NCBI GenBank assembly: GCA_029564765.1
Contig: JAKQPK010000043.1
Coordinates: 1 to 46,283, forward strand
Length of the DNA stretch: 46,283 bases
Source: Candidatus Omnitrophota bacterium
Lineage (GTDB): Bacteria; Omnitrophota; Gorgyraeia; Zapsychrales; Aceulaceae
Reading direction: 5' to 3'
The notes beneath the pieces are model-generated. The model was not told the DNA's origin. It did not search any database and saw only the letters and a list, made by a program, of their open reading frames with translations. This document shows positions 1,910 through 36,803 of this stretch, one piece after another; positions within the stretch are counted from its first letter, which is position 1; every line of letters begins with the position of its first letter. The translations under genes were made by a program, and so were the position numbers.

Positions 1910-2089
1910 ATGGATGACATTAAAAAGTATTTAACTGTTCGTGCTGTAGCCAAGAAATTCGGTCTGACCGAGGAGTGGATCCGCGACCTGATCGCCAAGA
2001 AAGAGATCAAGGCCGTCAAGATCGGCCAGTGGCGGATCAAACCGGCGGATTTGCAGGCGTTTGTTGATTCTCGTAAGAACATAAATTAA
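1910..2089 (+). CDS. Excisionase/MerR-like helix-turn-helix protein
   Basis: A 59-residue protein starts MDDIKKYLTVRAVAKKFGLT. It follows the pattern of the small winged-helix HTH_17/excisionase family: a first helix over the VRAVAKKFGL segment, a recognition helix around TEEWIRDLIAKKEI, and a wing with KIGQWRIKPADLQAFV. That accounts for almost the whole protein. The start is supported by GAGGGTG about 5 bases upstream. It ends 62 bases before the methyltransferase and points the same way. It may therefore be the transcriptional controller of the restriction operon, as small C-proteins are in other restriction-modification systems, or a leftover excisionase of the mobile element. Family assignment is good; the target is inference. 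Confidence 0.75.
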   Translation: MDDIKKYLTVRAVAKKFGLTEEWIRDLIAKKEIKAVKIGQWRIKPADLQAFVDSRKNIN

Positions 2090-2151: not shown

Positions 2152-4038
2152 ATGACAGCAAAAGGTTTTCAGTCCAGAGTGCATCCGTTTCTTAAGTGGG
2201 CGGGAGGCAAGACACAGTTATTAGCCGAATTAGAAAAACATGTTCCGGAAAAATACGGGACATATTTTGAGCCTTTCGTTGGAGGAGGGGCATTATTTTT
2301 TTATCTTAATCCCAAGAAGGCAATATTGGTTGATTCGAATCCTGAGCTGATCAATTGCTACGTTGTTGTTAGGGATGAGCCGAAAAAACTGATTGCCGCA
2401 TTGAAAAAGGGGTATGTTAACCGCGAGGATTATTATTATCACGTTCGAGATCAAGAGCCGGAAGTGCTTGACCCGATAGCTAGAGCCGCACGTTTTATAT
2501 ATTTAAATAAGACATGTTTCAACGGATTGTATCGGGTTAATAAAGAGGGGCGTTTTAATGTTCCTTTTGGTAAAAGAGTTAATCCTGCGATTTGTGAAGA
2601 AAAGAAATTGTTGTCGGCGCACCAAGCCCTGCAGGGAGTGCGAATAATATGTGACAGTTACGACAAGGTTGTTCGTGCTTCAGCGAAAGAGGGGGATTTT
2701 GTTTTCTTTGATCCGCCATATCATCCAGTGGGAGTTAACTCTGATTTTAAGAGATATACCAAAGAGTTCTTTTATGAAGAAGATCACATAGCTTTGCGCG
2801 ATCTTGTAAAAGACCTTGTTGATCGGGGAGTATATGTTTTATTAACGAATTCAAATACTGATTTTGTGCGAAGGCTTTTTAGCGGGTTTGAATACAAAGT
2901 GATTGAAACGCGTAGGAATATTAGCAGTAATGCAGAAACACGCACAGGTCAGGATTTAATAGTAATAGCCACGTCCGCGAAAAAGAAAACCTCTTCATAT
3001 TTTTCACTTCAGAGTGATGAGGTTCTTAAGAACTTTCCCGGGACGAGGTTCATGGGGAGCAAGTATCGAGTGCTTCCGTTCATTTGGGACTGTGTTAAGG
3101 ATTTACCATTTAAGTCCGTGATTGATGCTTTTTCTGGTAGCGGATGTGTTTCGTACATGTTTAAACAGGCAGGAAAGCGGGTTATTAGTAATGATTTTAT
3201 GCATTTTTGCAGTCATCTTACTATGGCTTTAATAGAGAACCCAGACGTTAGGCTTAATAAGAATGACATAAAGTTGCTTTTGTCGTCGAATAACAAGAAT
3301 AGTGGTTTTATATCTAAGAATTTTAAAGGTCTGTATTTTACTGATGGGGAGAATGCGTTTTTGGATTCTGCTAGGGCTAATGTTGATCTGCTGAAGGATA
3401 AGTATAAGAAATCCATGGCACTTGCGGCTTTGGCTAGGGCGTGTTTAAAAAGGCGAGCGCGCGGGATTTTTACTTTTGTTGGAGATCGTTACGATGATGG
3501 CAGGAGAGACATGAGGATGACTCTTCGGGAACATTTTGAAGAAAATATCGAGGCGTTTAATAATGCGGTTTTTGACAATGGTCAACAAAACAAGGCATGC
3601 AATGGGGACATTTTCGATTTGAATCAAAAAGCCGATCTGGTTTATTTTGACCCGCCCTATTTCACGCCTCAGTCAGATAATGATTATTGTCGGAGATATC
3701 ATTTTGTTGAAGGCCTCGTGCGGAAATGGGATGGGTTGATTATTCAAGAACACACGAAAACGAAGAAATTCAAGAAATATGAGACGCCGTTTTCTGCCAA
3801 AAATACGGTAGATAAGGCTTTTGATGATTTGTTTCGGAAGTTCAAGGATAGTATTTTGGTTGTTTCGTATTCTTCTAACTCTATCCCATCGAAGGCGGGG
3901 CTTGTTGAGCTTCTTAGAAAGTACAAGAATGAAGTCATTGTTCATCAGGTTGAGCATTTATATTCCTTCGGTAACCAAGGACACAAGGTCGGCCATAATG
4001 CCAATCGAGTGTTGGAGTATATTTTTGTTGCTTATTAA
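2152..4038 (+). CDS. Fused twin D12-class DNA adenine N6-methyltransferase
   Basis: A 628-residue protein contains two complete Dam/D12-type methyltransferase halves. The first has the FLKWAGGKTQ opening, an SAM-binding FVGGGA (42-47) and catalytic DPPY (187-190). The second begins near residue 295 (TRFMGSKYRV), with FSGSG (327-331) and DPPY (500-503). Each half transfers a methyl group from S-adenosylmethionine to adenine N6. Two fused D12 domains are the architecture of M.FokI, where each half protects one strand of an asymmetric site, so an asymmetric (type IIS) target is expected. The ATG at 2152 is chosen over the TTG at 2140 because GGAG lies 4 bases upstream of it. The endonuclease gene starts 11 bases after the stop, so this is the modification half of the system. 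The recognition sequence cannot be read from the protein. Confidence 0.92.
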   Translation: MTAKGFQSRVHPFLKWAGGKTQLLAELEKHVPEKYGTYFEPFVGGGALFFYLNPKKAILVDSNPELINCYVVVRDEPKKLIAALKKGYVNREDYYYHVRDQEPEVLDPIARAARFIYLNKTCFNGLYRVNKEGRFNVPFGKRVNPAICEEKKLLSAHQALQGVRIICDSYDKVVRASAKEGDFVFFDPPYHPVGVNSDFKRYTKEFFYEEDHIALRDLVKDLVDRGVYVLLTNSNTDFVRRLFSGFEYKVIETRRNISSNAETRTGQDLIVIATSAKKKTSSYFSLQSDEVLKNFPGTRFMGSKYRVLPFIWDCVKDLPFKSVIDAFSGSGCVSYMFKQAGKRVISNDFMHFCSHLTMALIENPDVRLNKNDIKLLLSSNNKNSGFISKNFKGLYFTDGENAFLDSARANVDLLKDKYKKSMALAALARACLKRRARGIFTFVGDRYDDGRRDMRMTLREHFEENIEAFNNAVFDNGQQNKACNGDIFDLNQKADLVYFDPPYFTPQSDNDYCRRYHFVEGLVRKWDGLIIQEHTKTKKFKKYETPFSAKNTVDKAFDDLFRKFKDSILVVSYSSNSIPSKAGLVELLRKYKNEVIVHQVEHLYSFGNQGHKVGHNANRVLEYIFVAY

Positions 4039-4049
4039 TTGAGGTCGTA

Positions 4050-6296
4050 ATGCCAAAAGTCTGGAATTTAGGAAACACAACAGTTAGAAATCCCAACCGC
4101 TTGAGGGATGGCCTGATTCTTTTGTCCGAAGAATTTAATGGCAGGCTTTATGGCGCAGAGCAGGAAGGGAACTTCTCTCGTCGACTTAATGAGGTGGGCA
4201 TTATTGATTCCGCAGGAACCAGTCCGGATTGGTTCGGGAGAAAGTGGCGGTCTGCTTTTGTTAAGTTAGGGTTTATAACCGAGAAATTTAGTCAGAGACA
4301 TAAAGCGATTGTTCAGCGGCTATCAGATGATTTTGGCTTTACTGAGTCGGGTTATGAGGTGACGCCTGCGGGGCGACTTTTAGTTGGCGCAGACTCCTTG
4401 GGCGCAATTGAGGACATTTTCACAAGGCAGTTGATTCAGCATGAAATAGCATCTCCCCTTGAAGGTTCCTTTCCAGAAGGGAGCATGAAGCCATTTATTC
4501 TATTCTTACAAGTTTTGTATAGGCTTCATCGGGAGGGACAGCCCGGGCTAAATAAACTCGAAATAGCGGCATTTATTCAATTGTTTAGAAATCATACGCC
4601 ATCGACGGCTGATGAGGTTACAAACGATGTCTTGGAATTTCGCAGGAAGCGAGCGGCTTGTCGGGATAAGAGGGAAAAGGGTCGTTGCGATCAAGAGGCT
4701 TTGGAATCGGCTAGTCGTCTTAAGATTGAAGGAAGCGTAGCGGCTGATTCTTTGGGTGATTATGCAGATACGACTGTTAGGTATACCAAGATGACCGGGT
4801 TAATTGCTGAGGCTGGTTCACGTGTTATTGTTCGTGAGACCAAAATTGCTTTTATCGAGGCTGTCTTAGCGAGAGAGCCGATTTTTCTTGCGACTGTTAA
4901 TCCTAGCGAATATTTAAAGAAATTTTATTCCGGTGGTGAGATTCCTACGGATGATCGTGTGTTCGCACATCAGGAGATTAATCGAGTGAGTCGGCGCCTT
5001 GAGGAATTGGGGAAGGGTATTCCTCAAGAATTGATTACAAAGGCTGAGCGGGCAGACATTAAAGAGTTGGAGCAGGTTAGATATAAACTGCTTGAGCTAG
5101 TGAATCAATCGGAAGAAGAAGTTTATGCATTGAACCAGCAAAAAGACGAGTTTATTAAAGAAATTTTGGAAGGTTTGACTGCTTTTGGTAATAATGGAGC
5201 AAAACGCATGTATAACGATCTGCCGACATATTTTGAGTGGATTGTGTGGCGGTCTTTTCTTGCTATTGATCACATCGCAGTGCCTGTTCATACAACAAGA
5301 CGTTTTCCGGTCGATGAGGATATATTGCCTCGGCATCCTGCGCCGGGAGGCGGGCCGGATATGCAGTTCGAGTTCAAAGATTTTGTCCTTGTTGTAGAGG
5401 TCACTTTAAAAACATCATCAAGGCAGGAAGCGGACGAAGGTGAGCCGGTTAGAAGACATGTTGCCGTAGCCTGCCAAGATAACCAGAAAGATGTGTATGG
5501 CGTTTTTATTGCGCCAACTATCGATACAAATACGGCGGAAACATTTCGTACGGGCGTTTGGTATCACCGCGAAGAAGTACGTCATTTAAAAATAGTTCCT
5601 TTTTCAATAGAGCAATTTAGGCTCATATTTTCAGCATTGCTTAATAAACGGTATACGCCGGGAGATTTAAAGGGTCTTATTGATCAATGTTTATCTGTTC
5701 GTCAGGGGATGCATGCTCCTGAATGGAAGAAGCATATCGATGAAGAAACAAAGAGATGGTGTCAGGGGTTGATCGCACAGGATGAGCGGTTTATTGATCA
5801 GATTGAGCGCGAGGTGAATGAGAGCCTTAAGTTTGTAGAATATTTACCCGTCTACGCTTTAGCGGCCGCTTGTGGAAAGTTTGGAGAGGGGCAGGAGGCG
5901 GATCCTGATGGCTGGATTCATGTTGAGAAAAGGGAATGGGAAAGAGATATTACTTTTGTGGTGCGCGCGGTAGGGCATTCAATGGAGCCCGACATTAAGG
6001 ATGGCGATTATTGTATTTTTAAAGCGAATCCGGGCGGCCCCTATTCTCATCAGAGAAGAATCTATTTGATTCAGCATCATGGTAAGACGGATCCGGAGAC
6101 CATGGGTTCTTACACAATTAAGGGCTACCGGAGTCACAAGGGGCCGGATGGGCTAAATATTCGAGTCGAGTTATTGCCGTTCAACAAAGAGTATGAGCCG
6201 ATGAGTTTTGGTGAAGCTGAGCAGGATATTGCTTCGCGGCTTATTTTTGTGGGTGAATTCGTTGAAGTGGTTAAGGCTATGAAAGAGGCACTATGA
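4050..6296 (+). CDS. AlwI-family restriction endonuclease fused to an S24 peptidase domain
   Basis: This 748-residue protein begins with the AlwI-family hallmark WNLGNTTVRNPNRLRDGL (residues 5-22). It carries a PD-(D/E)XK-like centre at PD (436-437) and VVEVTLK (448-454), followed by GEPVRRH. AlwI cuts at a distance from an asymmetric site, which fits the twin methyltransferase upstream. After about residue 600 a second domain appears: VRAVGHSMEPDIKDGDYCIF (638-657) and YTIKGYR (688-694). These give the Ser (S644) and Lys (K691) of an S24 LexA/UmuD-type peptidase. S24 domains self-cleave, so the nuclease may be switched by autoproteolysis. The domain could alternatively be only a binding module, as in some other defence proteins. 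The stop overlaps the start of the SIR2 gene. Nuclease family confidence is high; the S24 role is inference. Confidence 0.85.
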   Translation: MPKVWNLGNTTVRNPNRLRDGLILLSEEFNGRLYGAEQEGNFSRRLNEVGIIDSAGTSPDWFGRKWRSAFVKLGFITEKFSQRHKAIVQRLSDDFGFTESGYEVTPAGRLLVGADSLGAIEDIFTRQLIQHEIASPLEGSFPEGSMKPFILFLQVLYRLHREGQPGLNKLEIAAFIQLFRNHTPSTADEVTNDVLEFRRKRAACRDKREKGRCDQEALESASRLKIEGSVAADSLGDYADTTVRYTKMTGLIAEAGSRVIVRETKIAFIEAVLAREPIFLATVNPSEYLKKFYSGGEIPTDDRVFAHQEINRVSRRLEELGKGIPQELITKAERADIKELEQVRYKLLELVNQSEEEVYALNQQKDEFIKEILEGLTAFGNNGAKRMYNDLPTYFEWIVWRSFLAIDHIAVPVHTTRRFPVDEDILPRHPAPGGGPDMQFEFKDFVLVVEVTLKTSSRQEADEGEPVRRHVAVACQDNQKDVYGVFIAPTIDTNTAETFRTGVWYHREEVRHLKIVPFSIEQFRLIFSALLNKRYTPGDLKGLIDQCLSVRQGMHAPEWKKHIDEETKRWCQGLIAQDERFIDQIEREVNESLKFVEYLPVYALAAACGKFGEGQEADPDGWIHVEKREWERDITFVVRAVGHSMEPDIKDGDYCIFKANPGGPYSHQRRIYLIQHHGKTDPETMGSYTIKGYRSHKGPDGLNIRVELLPFNKEYEPMSFGEAEQDIASRLIFVGEFVEVVKAMKEAL

Positions 6297-7696
6297 CAAA
6301 AGAAAAACGAAAATATTGTTTAAAGGGCCCATCTGAGAATGGTCAAATAGAAGACTTGTTGGAAGGGAAGGATGATAAAGATAGTCGCCAGCGATTGCAG
6401 GCCTTAATTGCTGAGTGGCTTCGCATGGAGAACCTTGTCGTCTTGACAGGGGCGGGATGTTCGGTAAGTTGCGGAGGGAAAAAAATTGAAGACCTTGAAA
6501 AGTCGGTTTTAGAGGCCGTCGGTGAGGTCGCGAAGAAGACGAATGATAAGAAGACCATGCTGTCTGCTGGAGCCAAGGCTTTGATTGTTGAACGCCAAAA
6601 GGAATTTAGTAAACGGCAGTCTTGGGCGCAGACAAGTTTTGAGGAGTGGTTGTCCTATCTTGTGAATACTGTTCATGTGATGTCGGATAAAAAGTCTCCA
6701 ATAAAATCGATTGGGTGGAAAGAAGACGGAGCGAGTATTGAAGATGTAGATCAGTTGGTTTCGTATATTTCGAAAGCAATATACGCTGAGTGTGCTTTGA
6801 CTCTCCCAGATGAGACAGGAGCAAAGGAAGGCGAGAGGCAGATTGCTCCACATTTGGCGTTCTTGTCAAAGCTTGTAACGCGTGATAGCAATTTGGGAAG
6901 GACGCATCTCTTCACGTTGAATTACGACACCCTGTTTGAGCAAGCATTGGAAATATTAGGGATCCAATATTTTGATGGATTTACGGGAAAAGCTAATGCG
7001 CGCTTTGATCCGGCAGTTTATGGCCTTGATATTTATTATCCCGGGGAAGTTGCTGAAGGGAGGGTTAGGCGTTTTGATAAATTTCTTCATTATTATAAGT
7101 TGCACGGTTCGATTCACTGGAAAATTGTGGCAGGAGAATTAAGAGCGAGGCATGATGCCATTTTAGATTTTGAGAAATATCGTATAAAAGAAGCCGTTAA
7201 GAAGGCGGAAGATTTAATAACGGCTGGTTTTGCTTGTAGCCACAAAGAGTTTGGAATTCTTCCGACATCGAATAAGTTTGTACAGACATTGGAAATGCCG
7301 TATGCGCACCTTTTTAGATCGTTCAGCGCGCGGCTTAGTATTCCTCAGACATTCCTGCTGGTTCTTGGTTACGGTTTTGGAGATGACCATATCACCAAGA
7401 TTATTGAAACAGCACTCACAAATCCCGCGTTAGTTATGCTCGTTGTCGAGCCTAGGCCGGATAGTCCAACGATCGAGAGAATCAGTAGATATAAAGAACT
7501 TGGCAAGAGAGCGTTTGTTCTTACATCGACAGAAGACGCGTTCAAGTCTTCCGAGTATAAATACGCGACATTCGATGATTTTGCAAAGTCGGTCATGCCG
7601 GATGTTCAATGGCTAGATGATTTTTTGCGTTTGAGACGTTTCGAGAAACAATTACAAAAAGATAGAGATGAAAAAGATGGAATAGAGGACGCATAA
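6293..7696 (+). CDS. SIR2-family NADase-like defence protein
   Basis: A 467-residue protein with a SIR2 Rossmann core. GAGCS at 53-57 binds NAD, TLNYD carries N210, and KLHGS carries H271, which are the usual catalytic Asn and His of SIR2 enzymes. LVLGYGFGDDH near residue 360 closes the fold. Related SIR2 proteins in defence islands hydrolyse NAD+ when phage is sensed and cause growth arrest. The start overlaps the end of the AlwI/S24 gene by 4 bases and the stop overlaps the HerA start by one base, so translation is coupled. SIR2 next to HerA is the arrangement of the described SIR2-HerA (Nezha) antiphage system, in which the two proteins form one complex. The protein is not a deacetylase of the Sir2/CobB type: no zinc-binding cysteine set is apparent. 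Confidence 0.9.
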   Translation: MTKEKRKYCLKGPSENGQIEDLLEGKDDKDSRQRLQALIAEWLRMENLVVLTGAGCSVSCGGKKIEDLEKSVLEAVGEVAKKTNDKKTMLSAGAKALIVERQKEFSKRQSWAQTSFEEWLSYLVNTVHVMSDKKSPIKSIGWKEDGASIEDVDQLVSYISKAIYAECALTLPDETGAKEGERQIAPHLAFLSKLVTRDSNLGRTHLFTLNYDTLFEQALEILGIQYFDGFTGKANARFDPAVYGLDIYYPGEVAEGRVRRFDKFLHYYKLHGSIHWKIVAGELRARHDAILDFEKYRIKEAVKKAEDLITAGFACSHKEFGILPTSNKFVQTLEMPYAHLFRSFSARLSIPQTFLLVLGYGFGDDHITKIIETALTNPALVMLVVEPRPDSPTIERISRYKELGKRAFVLTSTEDAFKSSEYKYATFDDFAKSVMPDVQWLDDFLRLRRFEKQLQKDRDEKDGIEDA

Positions 7697-9777
7697 TGGA
7701 GAATCCTCGAATAATTGGCCATGTTGTTTCTGTGAATGGGTTTCGGGTCAAGGTTGAGCTTTTAACAGAAGCCCGTTCGCCATCACGCGCCACGCTTGAC
7801 GGTGTTCAGACGGCTGCTGCGATTAATTCTTATTTAACGTTTTCTATTGGTTCGGGATTGTCAATTATTGGTGTAATAAGCGACTTGGAGGCCCGAGAAA
7901 GTTATGATCCATCTTCAGGCGATGATCTTTCTTTAGAGCTTTTAAAGGCTCGCAGAGTTGCTAGTGTTCAGCTTTTAGGAACAATTGAACGAGATGGAGA
8001 ACAGTGGCGGTTCAATCCGGGGATAACGGTGCTTCCCACATTAGATACGCCTGCTGAAATCGGCTCTCCAAAAGTGTTAGCGGCAGTTTTTGAAAATCCT
8101 CCCCAAAAGAATAAACCTGATAATTATGAAGGAGAGGGATTTGATTTTGATCTTGTTTTAGGTTGTCCGACGGGTCAGAAAGATAACAGGGTTAAGGCAT
8201 CGTATAACGATCTTTTTTCACGACCGCTAGCCATTGTTGGTAATACGGGGTCAGGAAAATCGTATACTGTTGCTAGTGTGCTTAAGAAGGCAATGGTGGA
8301 AATTGGAGACGATGAAAAAAACGCCCCACATGTTTTCATTCTTGACATTAACGGGGAGTACGCTAGGGCTTTCTTATCCGAAGAGTCGGCAAGGCTTGTA
8401 CGAGAGCCTGATCGCATTTACCTTAATGGGCAAGAGTTTGGAGTTCCTCTTTGGTTTTTCAATGCTCAGGAGATTTGTGGATGGCTTAGCGCCGCTGAGC
8501 AGACACAGGAGCCGGTCTTAAAAGATTGGTGGGCGATTTCGAAGGCAAAGAATGCTCAAAAAGTAGTGACAGCGGCTGAGAATTCTTTGCGTTATGCTCT
8601 AACGAAGGTTGAACATCTTATTCAATGTTTGGATGATAAGAACGGTCCTAAGAAATTAAACTTGTGCTCGTATTTTAAAGTATTGAAAGATTATATCGGG
8701 GCCTTGAGTATTAATGGTTTGTCGCAATTAGAAGCAGAATTAAGTTCTCACCAGAGGGCGGATAAGAACGACTGGACTCCTCCGTCGAATGAAGTAGCGA
8801 TTCGAAAGCATGCCGTCGAGGTTCAGGAAGCTCTGCGTAAGGAAGTTGCGAAATCTATTGAAGAGGCTGGCGAAATTATTGGGACAGCAGATACGCCATT
8901 GCCGGTGGCAATCATGGATCTTGATGACCCGACGCTACTGAATCGTTCGGTACGACAAGAAGATGTAAGTCGTATAGATGCGCATCTTACGACTTTGAAA
9001 CTTAGATTAAAGACAAGGCTGGATGATAAGCGTTGGCAGGCATTTCTGAATTATGAGAAAGATAAAACAAGAGTTCTTTCTTTTGATAAATGGTTGGATC
9101 GGTTTGGATTTTTGGAACAGAAAGCTCCGCGTGTTTCGATTGTAGATCTTTCCATGTTGGCTCATGAAACATTGCCATATGCTTGTGGTGTAATTGGTAG
9201 AATTTTGCTTGAAGTAAGAGAGCGATTGCCTGCCCATGAAAGATTTTGTCATCCGTGGGTTCTAGTTCTTGAGGAAGCTCACAATTATGCAAAACCCGCC
9301 CGGCAAGATGAGGATAGGGGGCAAGCGTTATCAAGGATAGCCTTTGAAAGAATTGCCAAAGAAGGACGGAAATTCGGTTTATCTTTGATTGTTGCAAGTC
9401 AGAGACCAAGTGAAATTAGTCCGACTATTATTAGTCAGTGTGCTAACTTTGTTAGCCATAGACTTCAGAATCCAGATGATATTGATCACTTTCGTCGGAT
9501 AATTCCTATGCAAGCGAGACGGCTCTTAGATCAGGTGACCGTCTTGGCTTCCGGAGAGGCTATTGTTTTTGGTAGTGCGTTTCATATTCCTGCTCGTGTA
9601 CAGATTGATATGCCAGAGCCTCCCCCATGGAGTCAGACCGCCGCTCCTTATCATCAATGGAAAGAGAATAAAACTTGCTTTCCGGTGGATACGATTATTA
9701 AGAACTGGGGGCTGGAAGCAAAAACTGAAACGCAAACTAATAACGCCCCTGTTGCCGATGGTGTTGACGATCTATGA
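7696..9777 (+). CDS. herA: HerA-type hexameric ATPase/helicase
   Basis: A 693-residue protein opens with a HAS-barrel-like beta region (about 1-90). Walker A is GNTGSGKS at 182-189 and Walker B is VLVLEE at 522-527, followed by the SQRP motif (VASQRPSEISPTIISQ) that marks HerA/FtsK-like translocases. A charged insertion occupies about 290-480, between the Walker motifs. HerA rings translocate DNA, and in SIR2-HerA they hold the SIR2 subunits and supply nuclease, helicase or sensing activity. No NurA nuclease is encoded nearby, so SIR2 and possibly the AlwI nuclease are the candidate partners. The gene shares the A of the TAATG junction with the SIR2 gene. The family is clear; the partner assignment comes from context. 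Confidence 0.92.
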   Translation: MENPRIIGHVVSVNGFRVKVELLTEARSPSRATLDGVQTAAAINSYLTFSIGSGLSIIGVISDLEARESYDPSSGDDLSLELLKARRVASVQLLGTIERDGEQWRFNPGITVLPTLDTPAEIGSPKVLAAVFENPPQKNKPDNYEGEGFDFDLVLGCPTGQKDNRVKASYNDLFSRPLAIVGNTGSGKSYTVASVLKKAMVEIGDDEKNAPHVFILDINGEYARAFLSEESARLVREPDRIYLNGQEFGVPLWFFNAQEICGWLSAAEQTQEPVLKDWWAISKAKNAQKVVTAAENSLRYALTKVEHLIQCLDDKNGPKKLNLCSYFKVLKDYIGALSINGLSQLEAELSSHQRADKNDWTPPSNEVAIRKHAVEVQEALRKEVAKSIEEAGEIIGTADTPLPVAIMDLDDPTLLNRSVRQEDVSRIDAHLTTLKLRLKTRLDDKRWQAFLNYEKDKTRVLSFDKWLDRFGFLEQKAPRVSIVDLSMLAHETLPYACGVIGRILLEVRERLPAHERFCHPWVLVLEEAHNYAKPARQDEDRGQALSRIAFERIAKEGRKFGLSLIVASQRPSEISPTIISQCANFVSHRLQNPDDIDHFRRIIPMQARRLLDQVTVLASGEAIVFGSAFHIPARVQIDMPEPPPWSQTAAPYHQWKENKTCFPVDTIIKNWGLEAKTETQTNNAPVADGVDDL

Positions 9778-9875: not shown

Positions 9876-11093
9876 ATGTTTTATAAGACAACAACGAGCA
9901 TTAATCCTGAATTTCAATATTTCACGAAGAATCGGGATACTATTTTCTTTTTAGGGGCAGGATTTTCGGCTGATTTAGGTCTGCCAATTATGAAGGATTT
10001 CCGATCTGCGTCGGAGTTAGAACGTAATCTTCTTTCCCAAGAGGATACTTCTATAAAGCCAGCAGTGCGAATATTTCTTGATTCATATCGATTCTATGAT
10101 GATTTTCGAGAAATCGTGGAGAAGGCAAAGAAGCATATTAAAGTTGATCCTGATAACTTTGAAGATATATTTTGCGTGGCTGAATCGTTCTTGCATTCAG
10201 GCATGTTTGCGCAAAAGTTGGATGGCGGGAAGTATCATATGCAAGATGTCTATATGCATATTGGATTTTGGTTGTGGAATATGTATAAACAGTTTCCACC
10301 CTTAGATATTCGTAAAGGAAAGACGGAAGAGGGACGAGTATACGAGGATTTCTTTGCCTTTCTTAAGGACAAGACAAGGGATAGGATGTCAATAGTGACA
10401 ACCAATTATGACTTAACTTGCGAATATTATATGAACAAGAATCGTTTCCAGATTTCTTATCCTATCCCAAAGGCAAAGTATAAGGATGTTTCTATATGCA
10501 GGTGTCAGAATTATTATGTTAACGATAGGACTAGTTTTGACAGTGTTCCGCTGTGTAAATTGCATGGAAGCATAAATTATTTTGAGAATAATAAACGTTT
10601 CTTTATCAATAGGGAGTTGTCGGAGGCGGGGGCATGTGTCGGAGGGAGTAGTATCCCTAGTGAGCGGCCCGCATTGTTTGCCTTGGATGCATTGTCAGAA
10701 ATTAGAAGCAAGCTGAAGAATCCATTGGGACAATTGAGAAACTTTGAGATTGGAGTTGTCCCGCCGACATACGCCAAGCTTGATAAAAGAGAATGGTTGA
10801 AATACATATGGAATGGGGCATTTGATTTAATAAGAAGAGCCAAAAAAATAGTCTTTATTGGGTACAGTTTTCCGGTCTCCGATGGATTTATGAAATCGAT
10901 GTTTCAAGCGGCGTTCTCATTGAGAGGCGGTGATGATGATTTGAGGATTATCGTGGTTGATAAAAATAAATCTGTGCTCGAAAAGTTCAAGAGCGACGAT
11001 TATTTTGGCAATAGAGTTGAAGAGGTGTTTGAAGGTCAGTTTGTAGATGTTTGGAGAAAAGGTGAGTTAAGGGCGCGCCTGCAAAGTTTTTGA
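9876..11093 (+). CDS. Second SIR2-like protein, stand-alone type
   Basis: A 405-residue protein with its own SIR2 signature: FFLGAGFSADLGLP (GAGFS at 27-31), TTNYD with N177, LCKLHGS with H230 and a late IVFIGYSFPVSD. Sequence and length differ clearly from the 467-residue SIR2 protein, so it is not a recent duplicate. Between the motifs it has aromatic-rich stretches and a CRCQNYYVND segment with two cysteines, possibly a metal or sensor site. Predicted activity is NAD+ hydrolysis in an abortive-infection response; many such SIR2 proteins act without a partner. Ile codons are largely ATT, unlike the housekeeping genes further right. AGGGA about 10 bases upstream supports the ATG. Confidence 0.82.
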   Translation: MFYKTTTSINPEFQYFTKNRDTIFFLGAGFSADLGLPIMKDFRSASELERNLLSQEDTSIKPAVRIFLDSYRFYDDFREIVEKAKKHIKVDPDNFEDIFCVAESFLHSGMFAQKLDGGKYHMQDVYMHIGFWLWNMYKQFPPLDIRKGKTEEGRVYEDFFAFLKDKTRDRMSIVTTNYDLTCEYYMNKNRFQISYPIPKAKYKDVSICRCQNYYVNDRTSFDSVPLCKLHGSINYFENNKRFFINRELSEAGACVGGSSIPSERPALFALDALSEIRSKLKNPLGQLRNFEIGVVPPTYAKLDKREWLKYIWNGAFDLIRRAKKIVFIGYSFPVSDGFMKSMFQAAFSLRGGDDDLRIIVVDKNKSVLEKFKSDDYFGNRVEEVFEGQFVDVWRKGELRARLQSF

Positions 11094-11143
11094 TTTGGAT
11101 TCGTGCGCGGGGCGATCAGGCTAAGGATTTAGAAAGGGCGAGT

Positions 11144-11159
11144 CAACGTTTTAACGTTG
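11144..11159. promoter_or_regulatory. Inverted repeat upstream of the AbiE-like operon
   Basis: CAACGTT (11144-11150) and AACGTTG (11153-11159) form a perfect 7-bp inverted repeat with a 2-base centre, 36 bases before the antitoxin start. AbiEi antitoxins bind inverted repeats in their own promoter, so this is a candidate autoregulatory operator. Confidence 0.5.
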
Positions 11160-11194
11160 GCGGAACAAAGAAACATGATCAATCGACGAGGTGC

Positions 11195-11863
11195 GTGTTG
11201 AATAAGAAGGCATCGTTAAAAGAGTATGCGCAGAAATACCGCTATTTTTCCATTGGCGATATCGCGCGGGATCTTGGTTTTGAGAAAAAGACCTTGAAGG
11301 TGTACTTATCTGCCTTCAAGAAGGAAAAAATTGTTTATGATGCTGGTCGCGGCTGGTACTCGAATATTGCTGAGCCGTTTGAGTTGAGTACAGAGTCCCT
11401 TCAGGAAATCGTTGCTGTTTTGAGAAAGAAGTATCCGTTATTAAAATTTTCCTGCTGGTCTATGCAACAGATCAATCGGTTTACGCACCATATGTTGGGC
11501 AAGTATGTTACTTTTATTTATATGGATTGGGATTCGATGTCGGTGGTTTATGATTTCTTAAAGGATGCCGGATACGATGTTTGGTTGAATCCGCGCGGGA
11601 AAGAGGCGGAGCGTTTTTCGGTGCGCGAGCAGACCATTGTTTTGCGTCCGGCTATATCGGGCCAACCTGCAAAGGGCTTCTTTGCTCCGATTGAGAAGAT
11701 CATGGTGGATCTGTATCTTGAGATCGAGACCTTAAACGTGATGTCAGAATATGAAATCGTGAGGTCGAATATCCTTGCTGATGGCAGGATTGATGTTGCG
11801 AGTTTATTAAGCTATGCCAGAAGGCGAAGGGTTCCTAAAGCAGAAGTATGGGGGAATAAATAA
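11195..11863 (+). CDS. AbiEi-like type IV antitoxin/transcription factor
   Basis: The frame encodes about 222 residues from a GTG at 11195 (or TTG at 11198), both just after GAGGTG at 11188-11193. A TTG at 11090 would add a non-coding-looking extension that runs over the inverted repeat, so it is rejected. The N-terminus (SLKEYAQKYRYFSIGDIARD, then an LKVYLSAFKKEKIVYDAGRG stretch) is a winged-helix DNA-binding domain. The rest resembles the AbiEi/DUF6577 antitoxin body with a C-terminal helical domain. Its job would be to repress its own promoter and neutralise the adjacent nucleotidyltransferase toxin. The pairing with the next gene, 41 bases away, is the strongest support. Family-level match is from memory. 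Confidence 0.7.
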   Translation: MLNKKASLKEYAQKYRYFSIGDIARDLGFEKKTLKVYLSAFKKEKIVYDAGRGWYSNIAEPFELSTESLQEIVAVLRKKYPLLKFSCWSMQQINRFTHHMLGKYVTFIYMDWDSMSVVYDFLKDAGYDVWLNPRGKEAERFSVREQTIVLRPAISGQPAKGFFAPIEKIMVDLYLEIETLNVMSEYEIVRSNILADGRIDVASLLSYARRRRVPKAEVWGNK

Positions 11864-11904: not shown

Positions 11905-12990
11905 TTGGCGTATATGATTGAAAAACATTGTGTTACAAGAGAGTGGATAGATAAAAAGAGGGCGGAAATCGGTCGGGTTGATCCTATTCTTTTGGAGAAG
12001 TGCATTCGAGCTCTTGTTTTGTTGAGCGCTCTGACCAGTTTCAAGATGCCGTTTGTTTTTAAAGGCGGGACCAGCCTGATCCTGCTTATAAAGGGTTTTC
12101 GTAGACTTTCTATTGATGTTGATATTGTCACGGATATTCCGCGCGCCGAATATGAATTGGTCTTGAAAGATATCAGCCGGGGGTTTTCTTTTACCGGGTA
12201 TGAGGAGGATAAGCGGGGTGAGCGCGGTTTGCCCAAGCGGGCACATTTCAAGTTTTTTTATGATTCCGTTGTTACAAATCGGTCTGAATATGTTTTGCTG
12301 GATATTCTTGAGGAGAAGAATCTTTATCCGAAGACAAAAGTCGTTCCGGTCAGGGCGTCAATTCTGGAATTATCACAGGAGACGGTTGTTACGGTGCCAA
12401 CATTGGAATGTTTGCTGGGTGATAAGCTGACAGCTTTTGCGCCGAATACGATTGGGATTTCGTATCATCCGTTATCGAGTATGCAGATCATCAAACAGCT
12501 ATTCGATGTCGGCGAGATGTTTAATGTGGCGGAAGATATGGGTATGGTTGTGCGGGCTTACGAAGCGATTGCCCGGGCTGAAATCGGGTATCGTGGAAAC
12601 AAGGTTTCGGCTCAGGAGGCTATAGAGGATACATTTCAATCAGCAGTGTTGGCGTGCGGTCTCGGGCTCAAGGGCGTCAAGCCGGATGAGCGATCAGAGT
12701 TGTTTCTGGATGGAATCAAGAGGGTCGGCAGTCATTTGGTGAATTGTTATTTTCGTATGCCGGAAGCCCGGCTGATGGGGTCTCGTGTGGCTTTATTGGC
12801 GACTATGATTAAGGCGAGAGCTGAAAAGCGTGATTTACGCGCTTTACGCTGGAAACCGGAGGAGGCTGATCGTCTTGAGTTATTGTCTTTGAGCGGCTCA
12901 TTGGAAAAGCTCAACAGGATCCGGCAGACTGAGCCTGAAGCGTTTTACAATTTACACACAGCCCAAGGCTTCTTGGGAAGCATAGGATGA
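11905..12990 (+). CDS. AbiEii-like nucleotidyltransferase toxin
   Basis: A 361-residue protein with the nucleotidyltransferase core of the AbiEii/MenT family: KGGTSL at 53-58, the metal-binding SIDVDIV (69-75, Asp71 and Asp73), and LLGDKLTAFAP as the downstream conserved motif. AbiEii toxins transfer nucleotides, in related MenT enzymes to tRNA acceptor ends, and stop growth during phage infection. The TTG at 11905 is preceded at 8 bases by AAAAGG. An in-frame ATG at 11914 lacks such a site. It is the last gene of the defence island; a convergent terminator follows. GC and codon style shift partway towards that of the downstream region. Confidence 0.85.
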   Translation: MAYMIEKHCVTREWIDKKRAEIGRVDPILLEKCIRALVLLSALTSFKMPFVFKGGTSLILLIKGFRRLSIDVDIVTDIPRAEYELVLKDISRGFSFTGYEEDKRGERGLPKRAHFKFFYDSVVTNRSEYVLLDILEEKNLYPKTKVVPVRASILELSQETVVTVPTLECLLGDKLTAFAPNTIGISYHPLSSMQIIKQLFDVGEMFNVAEDMGMVVRAYEAIARAEIGYRGNKVSAQEAIEDTFQSAVLACGLGLKGVKPDERSELFLDGIKRVGSHLVNCYFRMPEARLMGSRVALLATMIKARAEKRDLRALRWKPEEADRLELLSLSGSLEKLNRIRQTEPEAFYNLHTAQGFLGSIG

Positions 12991-35543: not shown

Positions 35544-36803
35544 ATGAAATGTTCCAAGACTTATAATCTTAAAGTAGTAAATCCCAAATTAGCTTTAGAA
35601 TGGCACCCTACCAAGAATGGCCAGTTAAGCCCAAATGATGTAGCACCCAAATCTAATAAAAGAGTGTGGTGGAAATGCATCAAAGGTCATGAGTGGGAAG
35701 CAAAGATTAATAATCGTTCAGCTTTAGGAAGAGGGTGTCCAGTCTGTGCGAATAAAGTTGCCGTTGAAGGAGTAAATGATTTAGGCACAACTCACCCACA
35801 ACTTATAGAAGAATGGCATCCAAGCAGAAATAGTAATTTAACTCCAAAGAATGTTACGCATGAAAGTGGCAGAAAAGTTTGGTGGTTATGCCCAATAGGG
35901 CACGAATATCAAGCAAGTATACTTCATAGGTCATCGGGAACAAACTGTCCTTTTTGTAACTCTGGCAGGCAGACATCTTTTGCAGAACAAGCTGTTTTTT
36001 ATTATGTTAAAAAATTATATCCTGATGCCAAAAGTCGATATTCAGCAAGATTTCTAGGCAGAATGGAGTTGGATATTTACATCCCTTCTATAAAATATGC
36101 AATCGAATATGATGGTGAAGCGTGGCATAAAAAAGACACGATCAAGCGAGAACAGTTGAAATATAAGAGGTGCCACGAAAATGGTATTAAACTCATAAGA
36201 TTGAGAGAAAAATTTGCTGAACTTGGTTCAGATGTTGCTGATTATCAGTTTGGGACTAATAAGCTATATGAACCTAAGAATCTCGAATACATAATAAAGG
36301 AAGTTTTTAAACGTATAAATTTTTCTGATGGCTGGATGATGAAATGCCCCGTAGATGTAAATATAAAACGTGATAAGTTCGAAATAGAAAATTACAGATT
36401 TAATTTAAAGAAAGGTTCTCTCTTGGACAAATTTCCTCAAATTGCAAGAGAATGGCATCCAACAAAAAATGGCAGCTTGAGGCCTAGCATGTTTAAGCCT
36501 CGTTCAGATAAAGAAATCTGCTGGAAATGCTTTATTTGTGGTTATGAATATGAATCCACAATTGGTCATAGAACGTATGGGACAGGATGTCCAAAATGTG
36601 CAATCGAAAAAGTTACACAAATAAAACGAAAACCAGTGAACATGATTGACCCTAATACAGGTGAAGTTGTTTCAAAATTTATTTCAATTTCAGATGCATC
36701 AAGGAAAATGAAAATTAATAGTTCAAATATTTCAATGGTATGTAAAGGGCAAAGACCCAAGGCAGGCGGGTATTATTGGTCGCATGATAAAAAAGATGAA
36801 TAA
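35544..36803 (+). CDS. Zinc-ribbon, Vsr-like nuclease and NUMOD1 protein
   Basis: A 419-residue protein, AT-rich and with codon use unlike its neighbours, so probably transferred. Three copies of a zinc-ribbon (DUF4379-type) repeat occur at about 15-70, 80-140 and 285-350. Each has the LALEWHPTKNGQLSPNDV style opening, a WWKC-type pair and a CPVC/CPKC pair. Between the second and third lies a Vsr-like PD-(D/E)XK nuclease segment (MELDIYIPSIKYAIEYDGEA, then IKLIRLRE). The C-terminal 50 residues, IDPNTGEVVSKFISISDASR through GGYYWS, are a NUMOD1 DNA-binding module common in homing endonucleases. The combination suggests a DNA-binding nuclease of a mobile or selfish element. A TATAAT (35531-35536) almost abuts the ATG, so the mRNA could be leaderless. 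Confidence 0.75.
   Translation: MKCSKTYNLKVVNPKLALEWHPTKNGQLSPNDVAPKSNKRVWWKCIKGHEWEAKINNRSALGRGCPVCANKVAVEGVNDLGTTHPQLIEEWHPSRNSNLTPKNVTHESGRKVWWLCPIGHEYQASILHRSSGTNCPFCNSGRQTSFAEQAVFYYVKKLYPDAKSRYSARFLGRMELDIYIPSIKYAIEYDGEAWHKKDTIKREQLKYKRCHENGIKLIRLREKFAELGSDVADYQFGTNKLYEPKNLEYIIKEVFKRINFSDGWMMKCPVDVNIKRDKFEIENYRFNLKKGSLLDKFPQIAREWHPTKNGSLRPSMFKPRSDKEICWKCFICGYEYESTIGHRTYGTGCPKCAIEKVTQIKRKPVNMIDPNTGEVVSKFISISDASRKMKINSSNISMVCKGQRPKAGGYYWSHDKKDE

Follow-up and report, generated by a model that had tools for sequence, protein, structure and literature searches.

Do a twin methyltransferase, a restriction endonuclease, a SIR2-like protein and a HerA-type ATPase encoded side by side constitute one dedicated antiphage system, or are they separate defense modules carried in a common operon? 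The question is raised by a locus on a contig of 46,283 nucleotides from a Candidatus Omnitrophota bacterium, the whole of which is referred to here as the window. SIR2-HerA is known to deplete NAD+ against phages (PMC11559045), and the trigger that activates it has been described as unclear (PMC12198126). In the initial annotation of the locus it was proposed that restriction cuts or the state of methylation activate SIR2-HerA within a composite system of four proteins.

Organization of the locus

The four genes lie on the forward strand between positions 2152 and 9777, and direct reading of the open reading frames and their junctions bears out the positions and spacings originally given. The methyltransferase and endonuclease genes are separated by 11 bases (4039-4049), the endonuclease and SIR2 genes overlap by four (ATGA, with the SIR2 ATG at 6293), and the SIR2 and HerA genes share a single base (TAATG, with the HerA ATG at 7696). 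Such spacing fits a single transcription and translation unit, that is, one operon, as had been claimed. Promoter matches at the locus were below the shuffle level and not above chance. The assigned domains (twin D12, AlwI plus S24, SIR2 and HerA) were likewise confirmed by matches to Pfam, PADLOC and NCBIfam, with domain scores well beyond those expected by chance, and the catalytic motifs are intact in all four proteins.

What had not been recorded is that the run of genes continues on the same strand to position 12990. A second, diverged SIR2-like gene (9876-11093, forward strand; PF13289, E = 3e-7, with weak PADLOC Aga_SIR2/SIR2 matches) begins 98 bp after the HerA gene and is followed, also on the forward strand, by genes for an AbiEi-like (DUF6577) protein (11090-11863; PF20217, E = 1e-32; AbiEi, PDLC02235) and an AbiEii nucleotidyltransferase (11905-12990; PF08843, E = 5e-16; PDLC02299, 334 bits). 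The second SIR2-like protein, for which no match was found among plasmids, may belong with this AbiE pair. Each of the seven genes between 2152 and 12990 is of the defense type, and the four-gene operon is most likely the first half of a defense island. Preceding it are a gene for a small HTH_17 (excisionase-type) DNA-binding protein (1910-2089, forward strand; PF12728, E = 2e-12), possibly a regulator or a mobile-element leftover, and a serine recombinase remnant (Zn_ribbon_recom, 615-1337). Together these two features suggest arrival on a mobile element. Elsewhere in the window, a gene with repeated zinc-ribbon-like segments (35544-36803), possibly for a homing-type endonuclease, overlaps the kilobase of lowest GC content (0.347).

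The methyltransferase and the endonuclease

The first gene (2152-4038, forward strand) encodes a twin D12 adenine methyltransferase of 628 residues (PF02086, E = 2e-86; TIGR00571, 298 bits; PADLOC MTase_II, PDLC03261, 785 bits). The N-terminal half belongs to the Dam family, the C-terminal half is a second D12-like domain, and the protein contains two FxGxG-type and two DPPY motifs. The second gene (4050-6296, forward strand) encodes a protein of 748 residues in which an AlwI-family endonuclease, delineated by approximately residues 4-570 (PF09491, E = 5e-88), is followed by a C-terminal S24/LexA-like domain, approximately residues 596-745 (PF00717, Peptidase_S24, E = 4e-7, a match above the Pfam cut-off). 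The motif PD...EVTLK is located at residues 436-454, and PADLOC identifies the protein as REase_II with 284 bits. The presence of an RE_AlwI domain and an adjoining adenine methyltransferase, with the motifs intact, places the pair among the AlwI type II systems. Given the Dam-like N-terminal half and the AlwI family, the methyltransferase site is probably GGATC/GATCC. Over 246 kb, the only part of the genome counted, the observed/expected ratio is 0.83 for GGATC (rank 25 of 512) and 1.33 for GATC. A scan of viral contigs gave no match to the endonuclease.

AlwI type II pairs on plasmids of Geobacillus (pHTA426) and Priestia show the same order, with a Dam-family methyltransferase gene followed by that for the AlwI endonuclease, and these enzymes are 37-40% identical to the nuclease part of the protein described here. 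Unlike the latter, they lack the S24 tail, ending at around residue 570, and SIR2-HerA does not adjoin them. On the Priestia plasmid L026 (6856-19728), dptF, dptG and a DUF87 gene come immediately after the AlwI methyltransferase-endonuclease pair, a further case of a HerA-like ATPase encoded beside an AlwI pair.

The SIR2 and HerA proteins

The third gene (6293-7696, forward strand) encodes a SIR2-like protein of 467 residues, a presumed NADase (PF13289, SIR2_2, E = 5e-12; PDLC04085, 718 bits), which is present as a single copy in the 1.86-Mb assembly. It contains the active-site motifs TLNYD and KLHGS, and among solved structures it is closest to 8j4u_A (E = 9e-30), a chain of a SIR2-HerA complex. 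The fourth gene (7696-9777, forward strand) encodes a HerA/DUF87 ATPase of 693 residues (PF01935, E = 5e-20; PDLC04106, 1049 bits) with Walker A at residues 182-189 and Walker B (LEEAH) at residues 525-529, and the protein matches solved defense HerA chains. In the scan of viral contigs, SIR2 had four distant relatives and HerA none.

As in SIR2-HerA (Nezha) systems, the SIR2 gene is directly followed by that for HerA, and the active-site and Walker A/B motifs are intact. The pair differs from these systems in its subfamily (PDLC04085/PDLC04106) and in riding on a type II restriction operon. Indeed, against the NCBIfam antiphage equivalogs SIR2 scores 162 bits (cut-off 500) and HerA 220 bits (cut-off 850). 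Judged by these scores, both of which lie below the cut-offs, the pair is a related but distinct subfamily rather than the NCBIfam equivalog.

Conservation of the gene arrangement

A scan of genome contigs with a two-row SIR2 alignment yielded 45 loci in which SIR2 identity is 52-72% across most of the gene length, fragments aside. The flanks extend up to 10 kb in many, with some shortened by contig ends. When searched by tblastn with the window proteins, HerA was found to adjoin SIR2 in 42 of the 45 relatives, and neither the D12-D12 methyltransferase nor the AlwI endonuclease was detected in the flanks (up to 10 kb) of any. No restriction gene was detected in the flanks of the closest relative that has them, which is from a Nitrosomonas MAG (71% identity). 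The closest overall (L028, 72%) includes 89 bp of upstream sequence and carries a type I HsdM gene approximately 0.5 kb after HerA. AlwI domains are found in six of 193 genomes of the phylum, and among the phylum neighborhoods read, S24 or SIR2-HerA accompanies AlwI in the window alone. Across the 45 SIR2 relatives and the AlwI pairs of the phylum and of plasmids, the exact foursome was found once, in the window.

The gene slot upstream of SIR2-HerA is variable among the relatives. It is occupied by a VapBC-type pair in 17 loci, largely from one alphaproteobacterial lineage, by HigBA in three, by HipBA in one and by UvrD plus DUF2130 in one. At this last locus (L043, 3511-8535), the genes for the UvrD-like helicase and the DUF2130 protein end ∼14 bp before SIR2-HerA, which may represent a further association. 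Restriction genes also recur. In two sister rows of one clade (L061 and L070), a type III helicase-DUF4391-Mod-Res array ends ∼12 bp before SIR2; in L064, SIR2-HerA lies inside a type I operon with the order HsdM-x-HsdS-SIR2-HerA-...-HsdR; and in L057 a DNA methylase gene is positioned 1.07 kb upstream of SIR2. These cases (L061/L070, L064, L057 with its DNA methylase, and the window) fall at separate places in a SIR2 tree that was built by a quick method with SH-aLRT support only. L059 was rejected as a type III locus, given that the assignment rested on a short upstream open reading frame and was not supported by blastp. A pair that is 29% identical, from a genome of the same order (L106), is embedded in a type III operon with the order DUF4391-SIR2-HerA-Mod(III). 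Most of the more distant SIR2-HerA pairs on plasmids have no restriction genes beside them, but HsdMSR immediately precedes the pair on a Mycolicibacterium plasmid. On a Haematobacter plasmid, AbiEi-AbiEii lies 23 bp upstream of the pair.

SIR2-HerA is, in fact, a self-standing mobile two-gene module that is carried repeatedly, though not always, by restriction or toxin-antitoxin operons, and its repeated recruitment into restriction operons is supported. The proposal of a composite system survives to this extent: SIR2-HerA recurs in type I and type III restriction operons, but the exact combination of four does not recur.

The S24 tail of the endonuclease

The S24 tail (5865-6275, forward strand) carries a Ser-Lys dyad of the LexA/UmuD type. 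In an alignment of fused tails, the dyad corresponds to Ser644 and Lys691, and the candidate cleavage pair to Cys608-Gly609 (protein numbering). Both the serine (G-x-S-M) and the lysine (T-[IV]-K) are invariant in the 19 rows of this alignment, and in a larger set of 36 S24-tail proteins one or the other could not be read by simple pattern in a few rows. A segment LP[VI]Y-x-L-x-A is conserved ahead of the serine. The cleavage pair is Cys-Gly in UmuD and Ala-Gly in LexA. A Cys-Gly pair 35 residues ahead of the serine is found in the endonuclease and in a subgroup of the tails, and many others have Ala-Thr or Ala-Ser at this position. The same genome encodes a separate LexA, with Ala-Gly 34 residues ahead of its serine. 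The tail has in common with the self-cleaving LexA and UmuD proteins both dyad motifs and, as a candidate cleavage pair, a Cys-Gly 35 residues ahead of the serine; it differs from them in being fused to a nuclease, in having no repressor DNA-binding domain and in its longer Ser-Lys spacing. From these residues, LexA-like self-cleavage appears plausible for the endonuclease and less so for other S24 tails. A PDB search with the tail alone gave no match, and a profile search starting from it matched LexA weakly (E ∼0.006). A structure prediction from the single sequence had a pLDDT of 35 and was not relied on.

The tail is present in 31 of the 193 genomes sampled from the phylum. Within the same order, the endonuclease finds its best matches through the tail rather than through the nuclease. 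It is C-terminal on HsdR-type proteins (L093, L099, L101, L140, L144-L146), on type III Res or ResIII proteins (L089, L094, L142, L152, L158) and on Schlafen group 3 helicases (L091, L097, L148, L149). It also occurs on an HsdS specificity subunit (L159, 922-2727) and is thus not confined to nucleases and helicases. No description of S24-tailed restriction enzymes was found in the open-access literature. The spread of the tail over several types of protein, with the LexA Ser-Lys dyad kept, suggests that restriction enzymes have a switch built into them, one that may be SOS-responsive. The role of a switch, already assigned to the S24 domain in the initial annotation, is therefore a reasonable one.

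Discussion

The locus is probably best described as an AlwI type II restriction-modification operon that carries SIR2-HerA (Nezha-type) as 3' cargo, an arrangement that would provide layered defense under shared expression. The twin methyltransferase would mark host sites, most probably GGATC/GATCC, and the AlwI enzyme would cut unmarked invader DNA. To judge from the solved homologues, SIR2 and HerA would assemble into a complex of their own, bringing NAD+ depletion and DNA processing to bear on phages that survive restriction. The common operon would ensure co-expression and joint transfer rather than a fixed signaling pathway. Least certain is the S24 tail, which may act as a LexA-like regulatory module able to down-regulate the endonuclease; its self-cleavage, perhaps stimulated by RecA during DNA damage, would amount to a kind of restriction alleviation. 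A second locus combining AlwI with SIR2-HerA was not found, and selection for the pairing is thus without support. The 4-bp and 1-bp overlaps may point to tighter integration than simple cargo, as may an S24 tail that was found on no other AlwI enzyme.

It is unlikely, though by no means negligible, that the modules are chance neighbors joined by insertion in a defense island, with short overlaps of the sort usual in a compact operon. The seven defense-type genes on one strand, the recombinase remnants and HTH_17 gene upstream, and the single occurrence of the foursome are all in keeping with such a history. What weighs against it is the raw recurrence of type I, II and III restriction genes beside SIR2-HerA, in some cases with the pair embedded.

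It is quite unlikely that the S24 tail is a portable, LexA-like self-cleaving module through which DNA damage would switch type I, II and III restriction enzymes and Schlafen-type helicases, cleavage here disabling the endonuclease so that SIR2-HerA takes over.

Another possibility, and an improbable one, is that SIR2-HerA watches the restriction enzyme, in the way that PrrC guards EcoprrI, and depletes NAD+ upon inhibition of that enzyme or cleavage of its S24 tail. Restriction is known to be guarded by PrrC and by PARIS (PMC12707154), restriction operons with HEPN effectors inside them have been documented (PMC3710099), and the unclear trigger of SIR2-HerA leaves room for such a role. Both PrrC and PARIS are abortive-infection effectors tied to restriction, and the PrrC gene lies within its restriction operon; SIR2-HerA is similarly found inside or directly after operons of types I, II and III, at the 3' end here and embedded in L064 and L106. 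The effector in the window is, however, a presumed NADase-ATPase pair, and any sensing of restriction by it is hypothetical. Moreover, in most relatives the searched flank contains no restriction genes, many stand behind toxin-antitoxin pairs, and a restriction enzyme thus cannot be the general trigger of SIR2-HerA. No interaction interface was identified.

A dedicated four-protein system in which restriction cuts or the state of methylation activate SIR2-HerA, for which the translational coupling and the S24 tail might speak, is highly improbable, since for this exact foursome the homologues occur mostly as separate modules, with neither methyltransferase nor AlwI gene in the flanks (up to 10 kb) of any of the 45 SIR2 relatives and no S24 or SIR2-HerA with the other AlwI pairs read on plasmids and in the phylum.

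The recurrence of SIR2-HerA inside or behind restriction operons provides concrete loci for asking whether NAD+ depletion is linked to restriction or forms a further layer of defense. According to PMC4231737, restriction alleviation of EcoKI in E. coli proceeds by ClpXP proteolysis of HsdR. The S24 tail that restriction subunits of several types have in common points to a way of alleviating restriction that is built into the proteins themselves.
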